Shown here in pieces: positions 31,982 through 36,803 of a stretch of 64,000 bases of DNA (within the stretch, counting starts at the first letter, position 1; each line of letters begins with the position of its first letter). This DNA comes from Methanolobus sediminis. GTDB lineage: Archaea; Halobacteriota; Methanosarcinia; Methanosarcinales; Methanosarcinaceae. The position numbers and the translations under genes were made by a program. The stretch is taken from contig NZ_CP133592.1 in NCBI RefSeq assembly GCF_031312595.1, positions 1,240,001 to 1,304,000 on the forward strand, written 5' to 3'. The notes under the pieces were generated by a model. That model was not told the origin of the DNA and did no database searches. It saw only the letters and a program-made list of their open reading frames with translations.

Positions 31982-33574
31982 TCAGGGCTTATACTCTGCT
32001 GCTTCCTTAAAGCGCATTGCAAGGAAGTCCTTTTCAAGTGAGGAAAGGAACCAACCTGCTTTTGGACCTGAAGGTTGTCCGAGTACTGAGACATATATTG
32101 CCTTGAAAAGTTCCTTTGGATTTACTTCAAGTGAAGCTGCATCCACATTGAGTGCACCAGCGATCATTGTATTGAGTTCGGAACCTGCTTCTTTTGCAGA
32201 ATATACAAGGTTGTGGTAGTCCTCACCGTTGAGCTCACCGCTCTTGTCCAGTATGTCTGAGAAGGAACTGAGGAAAGCTCTCTGAAGATCATTGAGCTGT
32301 GAAGTACTTACAGGAAGCTCTTCCTGGACACTGAACTTTGCATTGTCAGGAGCGTACATCTCAAGCCAGTTTCCAACATTGTCAACAAGCTCACGTATGC
32401 ATTTCTCGCTGCTGGTGTCGTATCCTGCTCTCTTCACGATATTCATTATCTTATCAAAGTCACCTGCAGCAACCTGGTAGATCGTTGTCATGTGCTTGAA
32501 CGGAATGTCAGTGTGGCAGAGCCCTGCTGCATGTGAAAGCTCGATCATCCTCTTATCATAGGATGTAGCATTTTCACTTGTTTGAAGGCGCTCAAACTCA
32601 TCCACAAGTGTGAGAAGTGGCAAAGCAGGATCGAATCTGATGTGCTTTTCAGGCTTTGTACGGATGATAAGGTAGCGCAGTACCTCAGGTGGCACCACCT
32701 TGAGCATATCTGCAATTGAAACAACAACACCTGTTGATGATGACATTGCACCTTTCTGACCAAGCATGATCCATTCATAGACTATTGGATGTGGTGCTTC
32801 ATAGCCGAAAATATCCCTGGTAATATCAACGCCGGTGTCATATGAACCGCCTCTTGAAGCGTGGTCCTTACCGAATGGTTCAACCGTAACACCAAGAGCC
32901 TTCCACCTTGCCGGCCAGTCAACACGCCACGTCAGTTTTCCGCCGCCCTTCATTGAGACTGTACCCTTGCTTCCGCATGAACATTCATAGTTCACTGTTT
33001 CAGCATCAAGATCAAAACCAGTCACAATGGTGGTGTTTACCTTTCCACATTCATTGCATATCGGGTTGAACGGGCTCCATGTATCTACAGGGGTCTTGCC
33101 GGATTTCTTCTGCAAGATCGCTGCAATCTCATCCTTTTTCACAAGAGCCTGCTTGATAGCTTCTACATAGACACCTTCCTTGTAAAGTTCATCTGCCCTG
33201 TAAACAGTTGGATGGATTCCCAGGTGTTCAAGAGCTGCAAGGAATGGCTCAAGGAAGTGCTCGGAATAATTCTTATGTTCGCCGCATGGGCATGGAATCT
33301 CAGAAAGTGGTTTGCCAACGTGGGGCGCATAACTATCGTCAAGGAAAGGATAGACCTTTCTTAATGGGTCGTATGTGTCTGCAATGTAGATGAATTCAAC
33401 ATCAGCGCCTTTATCTTCAAGAGCCCTGAATGCTACATCTGCAGTTACGACCTCGCGCATGTTACCAATATGAATGTGACCTGAGGGTGTGATGCCTGTT
33501 GCAACCAGGTGCTTTTTGCCTTTTGCCAGCACCTCGTCTGCGATGACATCTGCCCAATGTGTAATATCTGCCAT
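31982..33574 (-). CDS. lysK: Lysine--tRNA ligase, class I
   Basis: The 530-residue protein is a class I lysyl-tRNA synthetase, with HIGNMREV as the HIGH motif near residue 37 and [10 protein letters not shown] in place of KMSKS. A zinc-binding region has CPCGEHKN and CNECGK...CSCGS. It charges tRNA(Lys) in the cytoplasm. GGTGA lies 4 nt before the ATG. The 200-nt region upstream has four stem-loops. Some Methanosarcinales also encode a class II LysRS, which is not in this window. Confidence 0.96.
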
Positions 33575-34027: not shown

Positions 34028-34813
34028 TTACCAGTATGTCTTGAAGTTCAGTAGTTCTTCTATCGTATCACGGTTCTTATCAAAGAACCTGTAATCTTTT
34101 ATCAGATTCCCATTGTAACTAAGAGTATCTATATAACCATACCAGTAAACGATCATACCGGTACCGTATTTCTCTTCGTATTCCCTGAACTGCTTTTTAA
34201 TATAGTAGTCATGCTCTTTTTCATCACCAAAAAGAGCCTTGCTTTCTATCCAGAAAATATCGATACCATCTATCACGATCTCTGAGTCCAGCAGAAAATC
34301 CGGAGTCTTTGAAAAACCCTCTTCCCTCAGGTCATTTTCTGACCTGTATGTAATTTCGTGCTCATCAAGCCACTCAGAAAGAATGGATTCTCCCATTTCA
34401 CCTTTCTCTGCATGAAGAGCATGAGCTTTCGGAGAGAAGAAGAAATCAGATTCCGTAGCTGCAATTACTTCTCTTTTCAGACGCCCGTCAGGCTGATCTT
34501 CAAGATTCCTGATAAAACCCTTTTTAGGAATACCCATTTCCTTGAGCAGCATGGAAACCATAAGAGTTGCAGGAATATCATTCTTTTTTGCTATCTCAAT
34601 GATACTTTTTCCTTTCCTCCATTGCTTCAGATGCCTTGGGGACTTACTCTTTACCCTGGAGAAATTTCTCTTTACCTTTGTGACAGTTTTCTGGTTCAAT
34701 ATTGAATGGATGGTACCTATAGGCTGTGAGAACTGCCGGGATACATTCTTCACGTCATCTACGCTCTCAAGGCTCTCATATATCTTATTATAAGTCTCAA
34801 TATCCATTCTCAT
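34028..34813 (-). CDS. TPD-domain protein, archaeal CDIN1/C15orf41 homolog (putative nuclease)
   Basis: The 261-residue protein has two helix-turn-helix segments (about 20-42 and 65-95), followed by a PD-(D/E)xK nuclease-like domain. That domain has the TPD signature at 170-172 (FSKTPDFLLDSEI), then WIESKALFG (Glu190, Lys192) and an EYEEKYGTGMIVYWYG end. This is the layout of the TPD family that includes human CDIN1, whose loss causes congenital dyserythropoietic anaemia type I. The gene overlaps the glycosylase gene by 17 nt, so both are translated together. The substrate is unknown. Confidence 0.82.
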   Translation of the reverse strand: MRMDIETYNKIYESLESVDDVKNVSRQFSQPIGTIHSILNQKTVTKVKRNFSRVKSKSPRHLKQWRKGKSIIEIAKKNDIPATLMVSMLLKEMGIPKKGFIRNLEDQPDGRLKREVIAATESDFFFSPKAHALHAEKGEMGESILSEWLDEHEITYRSENDLREEGFSKTPDFLLDSEIVIDGIDIFWIESKALFGDEKEHDYYIKKQFREYEEKYGTGMIVYWYGYIDTLSYNGNLIKDYRFFDKNRDTIEELLNFKTYW

Positions 34814-35429
34814 TCAAATCCTTCAGAATACATTCATTACATCTTTTTTTGCCACAATAGGCTTTTGAATATTCAACTATGAGGGCGTGGTATTCCTTAT
34901 AGATATCTACGTTTTCGGGAAGTTCTGCTTCAAATCTCTGCTGTAATTGCAGATAGTCGCCCTCTATGCCAATACATTTCATCATGCGGGTCGTGTACGC
35001 ATCTATGACGAATTTGGGTTTGTTGGCAGCATAAAGAACAATGCTGTCGGCAGTTTCGTTGCCAACTCCTTTAATAGACAATATGTTTTTCCTGAGTTCC
35101 ATCACAGGAAGGGAAAAAACATTATCCATACCGTTTTCTGCAAAAAAAGCCGCTATTCCCTTTAACCTGGAAGCTTTTTGCCGGTAGAAACCACAGCATC
35201 TCACAAGTTCTTCAATAAGCTCAGTGTCAGCTTCAGCAAGAGGCTCTATTTCCAGAAGACCATGATCCTTCAGGCCCTCAATGGCCTTTTCCACATTGGT
35301 CCACTTTGTCTGCTGCGTGAGCATGGCCCCGATAACAACTTCAAATGCCGTATCAGCAGGCCACCAGTATTGGGGTCCGAGTTCATCAAGAAGCAGATCA
35401 TATACCCTGCAAAGTATTCCAGCCGTCAT
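34797..35429 (-). CDS. HhH-GPD DNA glycosylase (EndoIII superfamily, MagIII-like)
   Basis: The 210-residue protein has the hairpin-helix-hairpin SIKGVGNETADSIVLYA (about 118-134) and catalytic Asp143 in FVIDAYTTR. The lysine used by bifunctional endonuclease III is replaced in GVGNETAD, which is closer to monofunctional enzymes such as MagIII 3-methyladenine glycosylase. Only three cysteines (192, 197, 200) are left in the iron-sulfur loop region, so a [4Fe-4S] cluster is doubtful. It starts 15 nt after the acidic protein gene and overlaps the TPD gene. Confidence 0.87.
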   Translation of the reverse strand: MTAGILCRVYDLLLDELGPQYWWPADTAFEVVIGAMLTQQTKWTNVEKAIEGLKDHGLLEIEPLAEADTELIEELVRCCGFYRQKASRLKGIAAFFAENGMDNVFSLPVMELRKNILSIKGVGNETADSIVLYAANKPKFVIDAYTTRMMKCIGIEGDYLQLQQRFEAELPENVDIYKEYHALIVEYSKAYCGKKRCNECILKDLNENGY

Positions 35430-35444
35430 GACATGTCAGAAGAG

Positions 35445-35936
35445 TTAGTCCCAGAATTTTTCTTCATAATCATCCGGAAGGTCCAGATCCATTAATTCAT
35501 CCAGAGACTTTCTCTTTTTGTCTTCCTTTTGGACATCTTTGCGAGCTTCAAAAACCGTAGTGTCCTTGTCATTTACCACAACCTCTTCACGGTTTACAGG
35601 ATACATTGGTTCTTTAGGAGGAAGCCCGGCAATCTCTGTGGGAGCTTCTGCAGAAATTGGCTGTCGCTTAAGATGTTGACGCCTTTCAGTACTTTGTTCT
35701 GGTTCAGGCCAGGACTTTCTTTCAACAGGAGCTTTCTTTTGAATCCTCATGCGCGTGCTTTCGGCATAGGTATCTACCATAGGAGTGGATCTTGAAAGCT
35801 CTTTGTGAGTTGAGCGGTACCCGATCACACATTGTTCGTCCCCTGTACGCCACTCTACTACGTAAAGGTGGCAGGCTTTTTTCTTACACTGGGAAACTCC
35901 GTCTTTGGGACAAATATCGGGCAACGTCATGATCAA
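35445..35936 (-). CDS. Hypothetical Cys-rich N-terminus protein with disordered tail
   Basis: The 163-residue protein has cysteines at its N-terminus (DICPKDGVSQCKKKACHLYVVEW), which could bind zinc, then a long charged, Pro- and Glu-rich tail likely to be disordered. The tail ends DLPDDYEEKFWD, an acidic aromatic end that could be a protein-binding motif. It lies 18 nt after prs and 15 nt before the glycosylase in one operon. A role as adaptor for the repair genes is a guess. Confidence 0.65.
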   Translation of the reverse strand: MIMTLPDICPKDGVSQCKKKACHLYVVEWRTGDEQCVIGYRSTHKELSRSTPMVDTYAESTRMRIQKKAPVERKSWPEPEQSTERRQHLKRQPISAEAPTEIAGLPPKEPMYPVNREEVVVNDKDTTVFEARKDVQKEDKKRKSLDELMDLDLPDDYEEKFWD

Positions 35937-35954
35937 ACCTCAATATATTAATGT

Positions 35955-36803
35955 TCAGATACTTCTTAAAGCATTGGCTATAAGAGGTGCCACACTGACA
36001 CAACTCTGCACCTTTTCTATTGTATCGGTAGCTATAATATCTTTTACCCCTGCATTGTACAGGCGCAACACCGCATTCCTTGCAAGAACTGGGTGAACAC
36101 ATGCAAGGTACACATCCTTTGCACCTTGGGATTTCAGCAGTTTGATGGATTCTGCCATGGTTCCACCGGTTGCGATCATGTCATCGATGATGATTATATC
36201 CCTGTTCATTACATCGACATTCTTTGCCTTGATAGTAACTGAATCACCGGAGTGTCTTGTCTTTTCAAGGTAATCATATTCCAGTCCGACATCGGTAGCT
36301 GTATTCTCTGCAAGGTTGATTGCACCCTTGTCAGGCGAGACAATCAGAGGATTGCACAGGTTCAGTGACCTTATGTGATAACCCAGAAGACGTGAAGCAT
36401 CAAGATCGAATGCATCGGCATTAAAATAGTTCAGAACACTTGCCTCATGTATATTTACTGTAAAGATCCTGTCTGCATTGATCGTCCTTGCGATAGCCCT
36501 TGCAGTTATTGGCTCTCCTGTCTTGAACTTTTTATCCTGCCTGGCATAGCCCATGTAAGGTATAACCACATTTATGACAGGTGAATCCTCACAGGCGTCA
36601 ATAAGCTGTAATAAGGCAACAAGATCAGAATCAGTTGTTGTACTCTGGATAATAGTAACTTCATCCACGTCCTCATCAAGTATGCGTGAATAGAGTTCAC
36701 CATCCGGGAATTTTGTGAAGTCACATACAGTAGGCTCAATATTAAGTTCTCTTGCAACCCTTGATGAAAGAGCCTGAGATGCTGGTCCCCCTATAATTTT
36801 CAA
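35955..36803 (-). CDS. prs: Ribose-phosphate pyrophosphokinase
   Basis: The 282-residue protein makes PRPP from ribose 5-phosphate and ATP, with the ATP site YMGYARQDKKFKTGEP and PRPP loop IIIDDMIATGGTM. It is shorter than the bacterial enzyme, as in other archaea. The start is TTG, with GAGGT 8 nt upstream. PRPP feeds the histidine and purine pathways whose genes (hisF, hisE, purH) also lie in the window. It heads an operon with the glycosylase and TPD genes. Confidence 0.95.
   Translation of the reverse strand: MKIIGGPASQALSSRVARELNIEPTVCDFTKFPDGELYSRILDEDVDEVTIIQSTTTDSDLVALLQLIDACEDSPVINVVIPYMGYARQDKKFKTGEPITARAIARTINADRIFTVNIHEASVLNYFNADAFDLDASRLLGYHIRSLNLCNPLIVSPDKGAINLAENTATDVGLEYDYLEKTRHSGDSVTIKAKNVDVMNRDIIIIDDMIATGGTMAESIKLLKSQGAKDVYLACVHPVLARNAVLRLYNAGVKDIIATDTIEKVQSCVSVAPLIANALRSI

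Follow-up and report, generated by a model that had tools for sequence, protein, structure and literature searches.

What does a nuclease of the CDIN1 family act on, and can the gene neighbors of an archaeal member tell us? Human CDIN1 (C15orf41) is essential and linked to a disease, an anemia; it is without a known substrate, and searches using the human protein have failed. Family members have been predicted to be nucleases (PMC7092493, PMC6519365, PMC7261414), and archaeal and viral orthologues are on record (PMC7092493, PMC6519365). CDIN1 has no reported nuclease activity (PMC7261414, PMC13370696), nothing ties it conclusively to a nucleic-acid substrate (PMC11911400), and human CDIN1 together with a Codanin-1 fragment cleaved none of the DNA or RNA tried (PMC7261414). 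Codanin-1, the partner of human CDIN1, resembles the mRNA-decay scaffold CNOT1; in the literature it is known from eukaryotes only and has not been reported from archaea (PMC7092493). Archaeal relatives of CDIN1 are small and carry a full active site, and with no reported Codanin-1 they are good material for finding a substrate. In a stretch of 64,000 nucleotides from the methane-producing archaeon Methanolobus sediminis (the window), a first-pass annotation had proposed that such a protein, named TPD for its Pfam domain, could form a base-excision module with a DNA glycosylase whose gene overlaps its own.

Two overlapping genes in Methanolobus

The features of the locus, by position in the window, are as follows.

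31982..33574, minus strand: lysS, class I lysyl-tRNA synthetase (PF01921, E=9.9e-126), 453 nt downstream of TPD
34028..34813, minus strand: TPD/CDIN1-family protein, 261 aa, possible second start at 34807 (Pfam, AlphaFold2 model, Foldseek)
34178..34390, minus strand: PD-(D/E)xK active site of TPD, with GE142, KTPD172, ESK (E190, K192), and Q208xxxY212 (alignments)
34508..34801, minus strand: N-terminal helical (HTH) region of TPD, residues 5-102 (NCBIfam, AlphaFold2 model, Foldseek)
34797..34813, minus strand: overlap of the two reading frames, 17 nt (sequence coordinates)
34797..35429, minus strand: MagIII-like HhH-GPD DNA glycosylase, 210 aa (PF00730, PDB profile match)
34863..34865, minus strand: K189 of the glycosylase, at the MagIII Lys211 position (alignment)
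35001..35057, minus strand: glycosylase catalytic stretch, with D143 kept and E125 where EndoIII has its lyase lysine (alignment of 23 orthologues)
35445..35936, minus strand: Cys-rich protein, next gene upstream, syntenic in Methanosarcina too (synteny)
35955..36803, minus strand: prs, ribose-phosphate pyrophosphokinase, used as a synteny control (PF13793/PF00156)

The glycosylase gene lies upstream of TPD on the same strand, and the 17-nt overlap first reported was confirmed. Most relatives of TPD begin at its second ATG (MDIE...), a start that would reduce the overlap to 11 nt. Because 9 of the 43 same-strand neighbor pairs in the window overlap (in four cases over more than 4 nt), gene overlap is ordinary here, and the length of this one is only mildly unusual. 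A scan for sigma-70 promoters, a model ill-suited to archaea, gave matches at chance level, and the Cys-rich protein had no match in Pfam.

We assigned TPD to the CDIN1 family by Pfam and by its fold match to viral CDIN1/TPD proteins. The protein matched PF14811 with an E value of 1.5e-47 (161.3 bits against a curated cut-off of 27), a domain that it has in common with the human family, and its nearest named relatives are from M. vulcani, at 93-94%. Residues E142, D172, E190, K192, Q208, and Y212 were invariant in alignments of 33 and 49 relatives. These are the marks of a PD-(D/E)xK nuclease, and the E ... D ... ExK pattern in the core fold was present in 49 of 49 sequences; the active site is apparently intact. 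The AlphaFold2 model (pLDDT 93.7, pTM 0.89) places a tandem helix-turn-helix before the nuclease domain with high confidence. The same arrangement has been described for human C15ORF41, with HTH segments N-terminal to the PD-(D/E)xK domain (PMC7261414). Against viral models, Foldseek matched TPD to giant-virus TPD and “CDAN1-interacting nuclease 1” proteins at E values of 1e-11 and 1e-9. Both the homology to CDIN1 and the combination of a nuclease core with HTH segments, as first annotated, are thus upheld by Pfam, the alignment, the model, and the viral fold match. Three CDIN1/TPD-type entries in BFVD from megavirus and mimivirus (A0A8F8SNR0, A0A167RJG3, and A0A2L2DJP4) have the same fold as the protein encoded at 34028-34813.

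Against the PDB, the TPD model had no Foldseek match at E<=0.001, and the best matches, all weak, were mostly PD-(D/E)xK nucleases. Among the weak matches were NucS (2vld), MUS81-EME1, and XPF-ERCC1, which share the type of nuclease core; the HTH-before-core order of the TPD family sets the archaeal protein apart from them. No PDB chain matched an archaeal TPD profile, and hence there was no human CDIN1 structure for comparison. The N-terminal region showed a weak likeness to Cbp1, a CRISPR-repeat-binding protein, through NCBIfam HTH_Cbp1 (E=1.5e-4, under the cut-off) and a weak Foldseek match to 2lvs, a Cbp1 HTH protein.

The glycosylase matched PF00730 with an E value of 7.1e-16 (58.9 bits against a cut-off of 26.2), and its closest solved relative was Helicobacter pylori MagIII (1pu6, E=3e-24; profile match, E=5.9e-33). 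Since it scored 123.7 bits against the cut-off of 192 for the NCBIfam MagIII equivalog (NF010494), “MagIII-like”, the label of the first reading, is right by sequence and plain “MagIII” is not. The two proteins have in common the HhH-GPD fold family, the WWP motif, and the catalytic Asp; D143, invariant in 23 orthologues, corresponds in the alignment to the Asp in the VVDKY of MagIII. Equally invariant are K189, aligned with MagIII Lys211, and E125, at the position where EndoIII carries its lyase lysine. The hairpin reads GVGNE, compared to GVGRK in the Nth of Archaeoglobaceae, and thus lacks the GVGxK lysine of bifunctional EndoIII-type glycosylase/lyases, as does MagIII. With E125 in place of this lysine, the glycosylase is predicted to be monofunctional and should leave abasic sites. 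MagIII, in the aligned part, is without the three C-terminal cysteines (C192, C197, and C200) that are invariant in the Methanolobus-type glycosylase. These cysteines, encoded within 34830-34856 of the window, number three compared to four in the iron-sulfur loop of EndoIII.

Distribution and linkage of the pair

TPD was found in 90 of 295 genomes of the phylum, only in Methanosarcinaceae, ANME-2, and Archaeoglobaceae. It occurs as one copy per genome, and nearly every sampled genome of Methanosarcinaceae and Archaeoglobaceae has one. Orthologues of the glycosylase range far wider, through many other families. In Methanosarcinaceae other than Methanosarcina (Methanolobus, Methanococcoides, ANME-3, Methanomethylovorans, Methanosalsum, Methanohalophilus, and relatives), the two genes were adjacent in all 36 separate-gene loci examined. 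A Methanococcoides MAG has them fused in one open reading frame of 487 aa (L104:5329-6792); the fusion arises from an 8-nt deletion relative to the nearest relatives and was seen in this single MAG. The pair is intact even where the upstream flank (ANME-3) or the downstream flank (Methanolobus) has changed. However, background synteny in Methanosarcinaceae is high, and moaC, prs, and the Cys-rich gene, without known shared function, stay together about equally well, Methanosarcina included.

The first-pass annotation had called for a survey of TPD gene neighbors in archaea. The linkage proved to extend over most Methanosarcinaceae genera but was absent in Methanosarcina, ANME-2, and Archaeoglobaceae, so that it does not reach past one lineage. 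In Methanosarcina, TPD is at the same locus, the glycosylase is missing there, and the closest one present is a distant copy at another site. Archaeoglobaceae have TPD and EndoIII-like proteins only, with no orthologue of this glycosylase. Conversely, one genome (G217, of the same genus as G002; locus L198) keeps the glycosylase between its usual neighbors and has no TPD anywhere in a 98%-complete assembly. A branch-length hint of faster glycosylase evolution after this loss disappeared against the prs and lysS controls, with which the divergence of the G217 glycosylase was in line. In this distribution, neither gene shows a dependence on the other.

In ANME-2, the glycosylase gene sits by npdG and a proteasome beta gene. 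The glycosylase and npdG genes overlap there and in families without TPD (spacings of -10 in L197, -23 in L203, -4 in L205, and -23 in L208), and for L197, L205, and L208 a model match confirmed the identity of npdG, an NADPH-dependent F420 reductase. Since the glycosylase gene shares nucleotides with that of a reductase in these genomes, an overlapping neighbor is no indication of a common pathway. The glycosylase tree placed the unlinked ANME-2 sequences, with moderate support, as the sister group of the linked clade, which implies that the linkage probably arose once.

Other neighbors of TPD genes

In other lineages TPD has different neighbors. In most ANME-2 loci, it lies 9-17 nt behind the gene of release factor aRF1, and in one (L141) the two are predicted to overlap by 53 nt. 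In Archaeoglobaceae, a gene of about 90 aa is directly upstream of TPD in 30 of 46 informative loci (counted after removal of duplicates) and overlaps it in 19. The encoded protein matched Nmd3 (PF04981) in 14 of 14 cases scanned, the first with 36.5 bits against a cut-off of 24.9, and its predicted fold matched pre-60S Nmd3 (Foldseek E value, 6e-6). It spans just a portion of the family model; we call it mini-Nmd3, and full-length NMD3 is encoded separately in Archaeoglobaceae. Mini-Nmd3 also occurs without adjoining TPD and in a few families without TPD. It was present in nearly all Archaeoglobaceae searched (L036-L049 and L154-L187; e.g., L045:3456-3737 and L041:4601-4885), mostly overlapping TPD.

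Two Archaeoglobaceae of one genus have an overlapping string of nth (endonuclease III), mini-Nmd3, and TPD (L044:2908-4596 and L045:2828-4620). In eight loci of one Archaeoglobaceae genus, RecJ lies upstream of TPD with 166 nt between them; two loci have TPD overlapping the tgtA-arcS genes; and in Methanosarcina and ANME-3, TPD is tail-to-tail with rad50-mre11. Taken together, the neighbors of TPD mix DNA repair and translation and differ by lineage, and outside the linked clade the tight neighbors are mostly translation or RNA genes. Within the literature collection searched, we found no paper joining C15orf41, endonuclease, and glycosylase, and the linkages of TPD to the glycosylase and to mini-Nmd3 appear to be unreported.

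Function of the archaeal TPD protein

Our leading reading, held at about even odds, is that TPD is a nuclease in its own right, with DNA as its most likely target, that is co-expressed with the glycosylase and independent of it. This reading starts from direct observations (gene identities, active-site conservation, predicted fold, distribution, linkage, and losses), and we favor it because each gene is kept without the other, because an Xth AP endonuclease is present, and because the glycosylase lies beside npdG in ANME-2. The positions of TPD near rad50-mre11 and RecJ also speak for it. In our model, two individually useful genome-maintenance enzymes would be made from one transcript; a prokaryotic operon with a glycosylase sets the archaeal gene apart from CDIN1. 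The monofunctional glycosylase would take out damaged, probably alkylated, bases and leave abasic sites, which the resident Xth can cut. TPD would be a metal-dependent PD-(D/E)xK nuclease whose N-terminal HTH segments grip nucleic acid, with branched or damaged DNA as its most likely substrate. The genes were probably joined once, after ANME-2 split off, in a common ancestor of the Methanosarcinaceae other than Methanosarcina, and translational coupling would have kept them together since then, with neither dependent on the other. Against this, the pair outlasted changes of both flanks, which could reflect selection acting on the two genes as a unit; two Archaeoglobaceae carry EndoIII in their TPD operon; and the human protein with a Codanin-1 fragment cut none of the DNA or RNA tried (PMC7261414).

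The base-excision module first proposed, in which TPD would incise or trim at the abasic site left by the glycosylase, with the two perhaps forming a complex, seems to us unlikely. Its parts, the overlap, and the linkage in most Methanosarcinaceae genera held up: the genes overlap or lie close together at 36 loci, one MAG has them fused, and a monofunctional glycosylase would require a downstream nuclease. A second, separate operon with EndoIII adds to this, as two separate HhH-GPD links would seem to exceed chance expectation (a judgment rather than a calculated value). However, the genes occur apart, TPD alone in Methanosarcina, ANME-2, and Archaeoglobaceae and the glycosylase alone in G217 and many families; the glycosylase overlaps npdG elsewhere; and the fusion, which we do not build on, depends on one small deletion in a single MAG. 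Xth, an ExoIII-family AP endonuclease, was well over its curated cut-off in 16 of 16 Methanolobus genomes, and therefore TPD is not needed for cutting abasic sites. With prs, moaC, and the Cys-rich gene equally faithful and the majority of TPD neighbors elsewhere being non-base-excision genes, the linkage argues weakly for a common function in repair, and on its own it does not settle the substrate of the CDIN1 family.

A nuclease for RNA processing or quality control, linked to RNA or the ribosome and with the glycosylase as an accidental neighbor, is likewise a doubtful reading of TPD, and we think it equally unlikely that archaeal CDIN1-family nucleases in general act at the ribosome or on RNA. 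The idea comes from the translational coupling of TPD to the single-domain Nmd3 in Archaeoglobaceae and from its position behind aRF1 in ANME-2; the tgtA-arcS overlap and the likeness of Codanin-1 to CNOT1 (PMC7092493) point the same way. But mini-Nmd3 is also found away from TPD and in families without it, the HTH region of TPD resembles a DNA-repeat binder, replication and translation genes are often mixed in archaeal operons (PMC2643942), and human CDIN1-Codanin-1 preparations cut no RNA tried (PMC7261414). If true, this reading would agree with the CNOT1-like architecture of Codanin-1, and the hunt for what CDIN1 acts on would turn away from DNA repair and toward RNA or ribosome quality control. 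We think it improbable, more so than either of these alternatives, that the adjacency is synteny inertia of no functional bearing and that TPD serves a restriction- or defense-like activity. The high background synteny in Methanosarcinaceae and a fold in common with restriction enzymes would agree with it, whereas a single-copy gene that is near-universal in the sampled Methanosarcinaceae and Archaeoglobaceae is unlike the patchy defense genes. TPD had no match in a defense library, plasmids, phages, or viral contigs, and we rejected it as a mobile-element gene. Our survey of neighborhoods gives a ranked list of substrate candidates: branched DNA, abasic DNA, and rRNA, tRNA, or ribosomes.

A minor observation concerns in-frame TAG codons in the pair. 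A Methanohalophilus-like genome (G197, L027) has one each in the TPD and glycosylase genes, and another genome (G085, L022) has one near the glycosylase start; these codons are possibly read as pyrrolysine.
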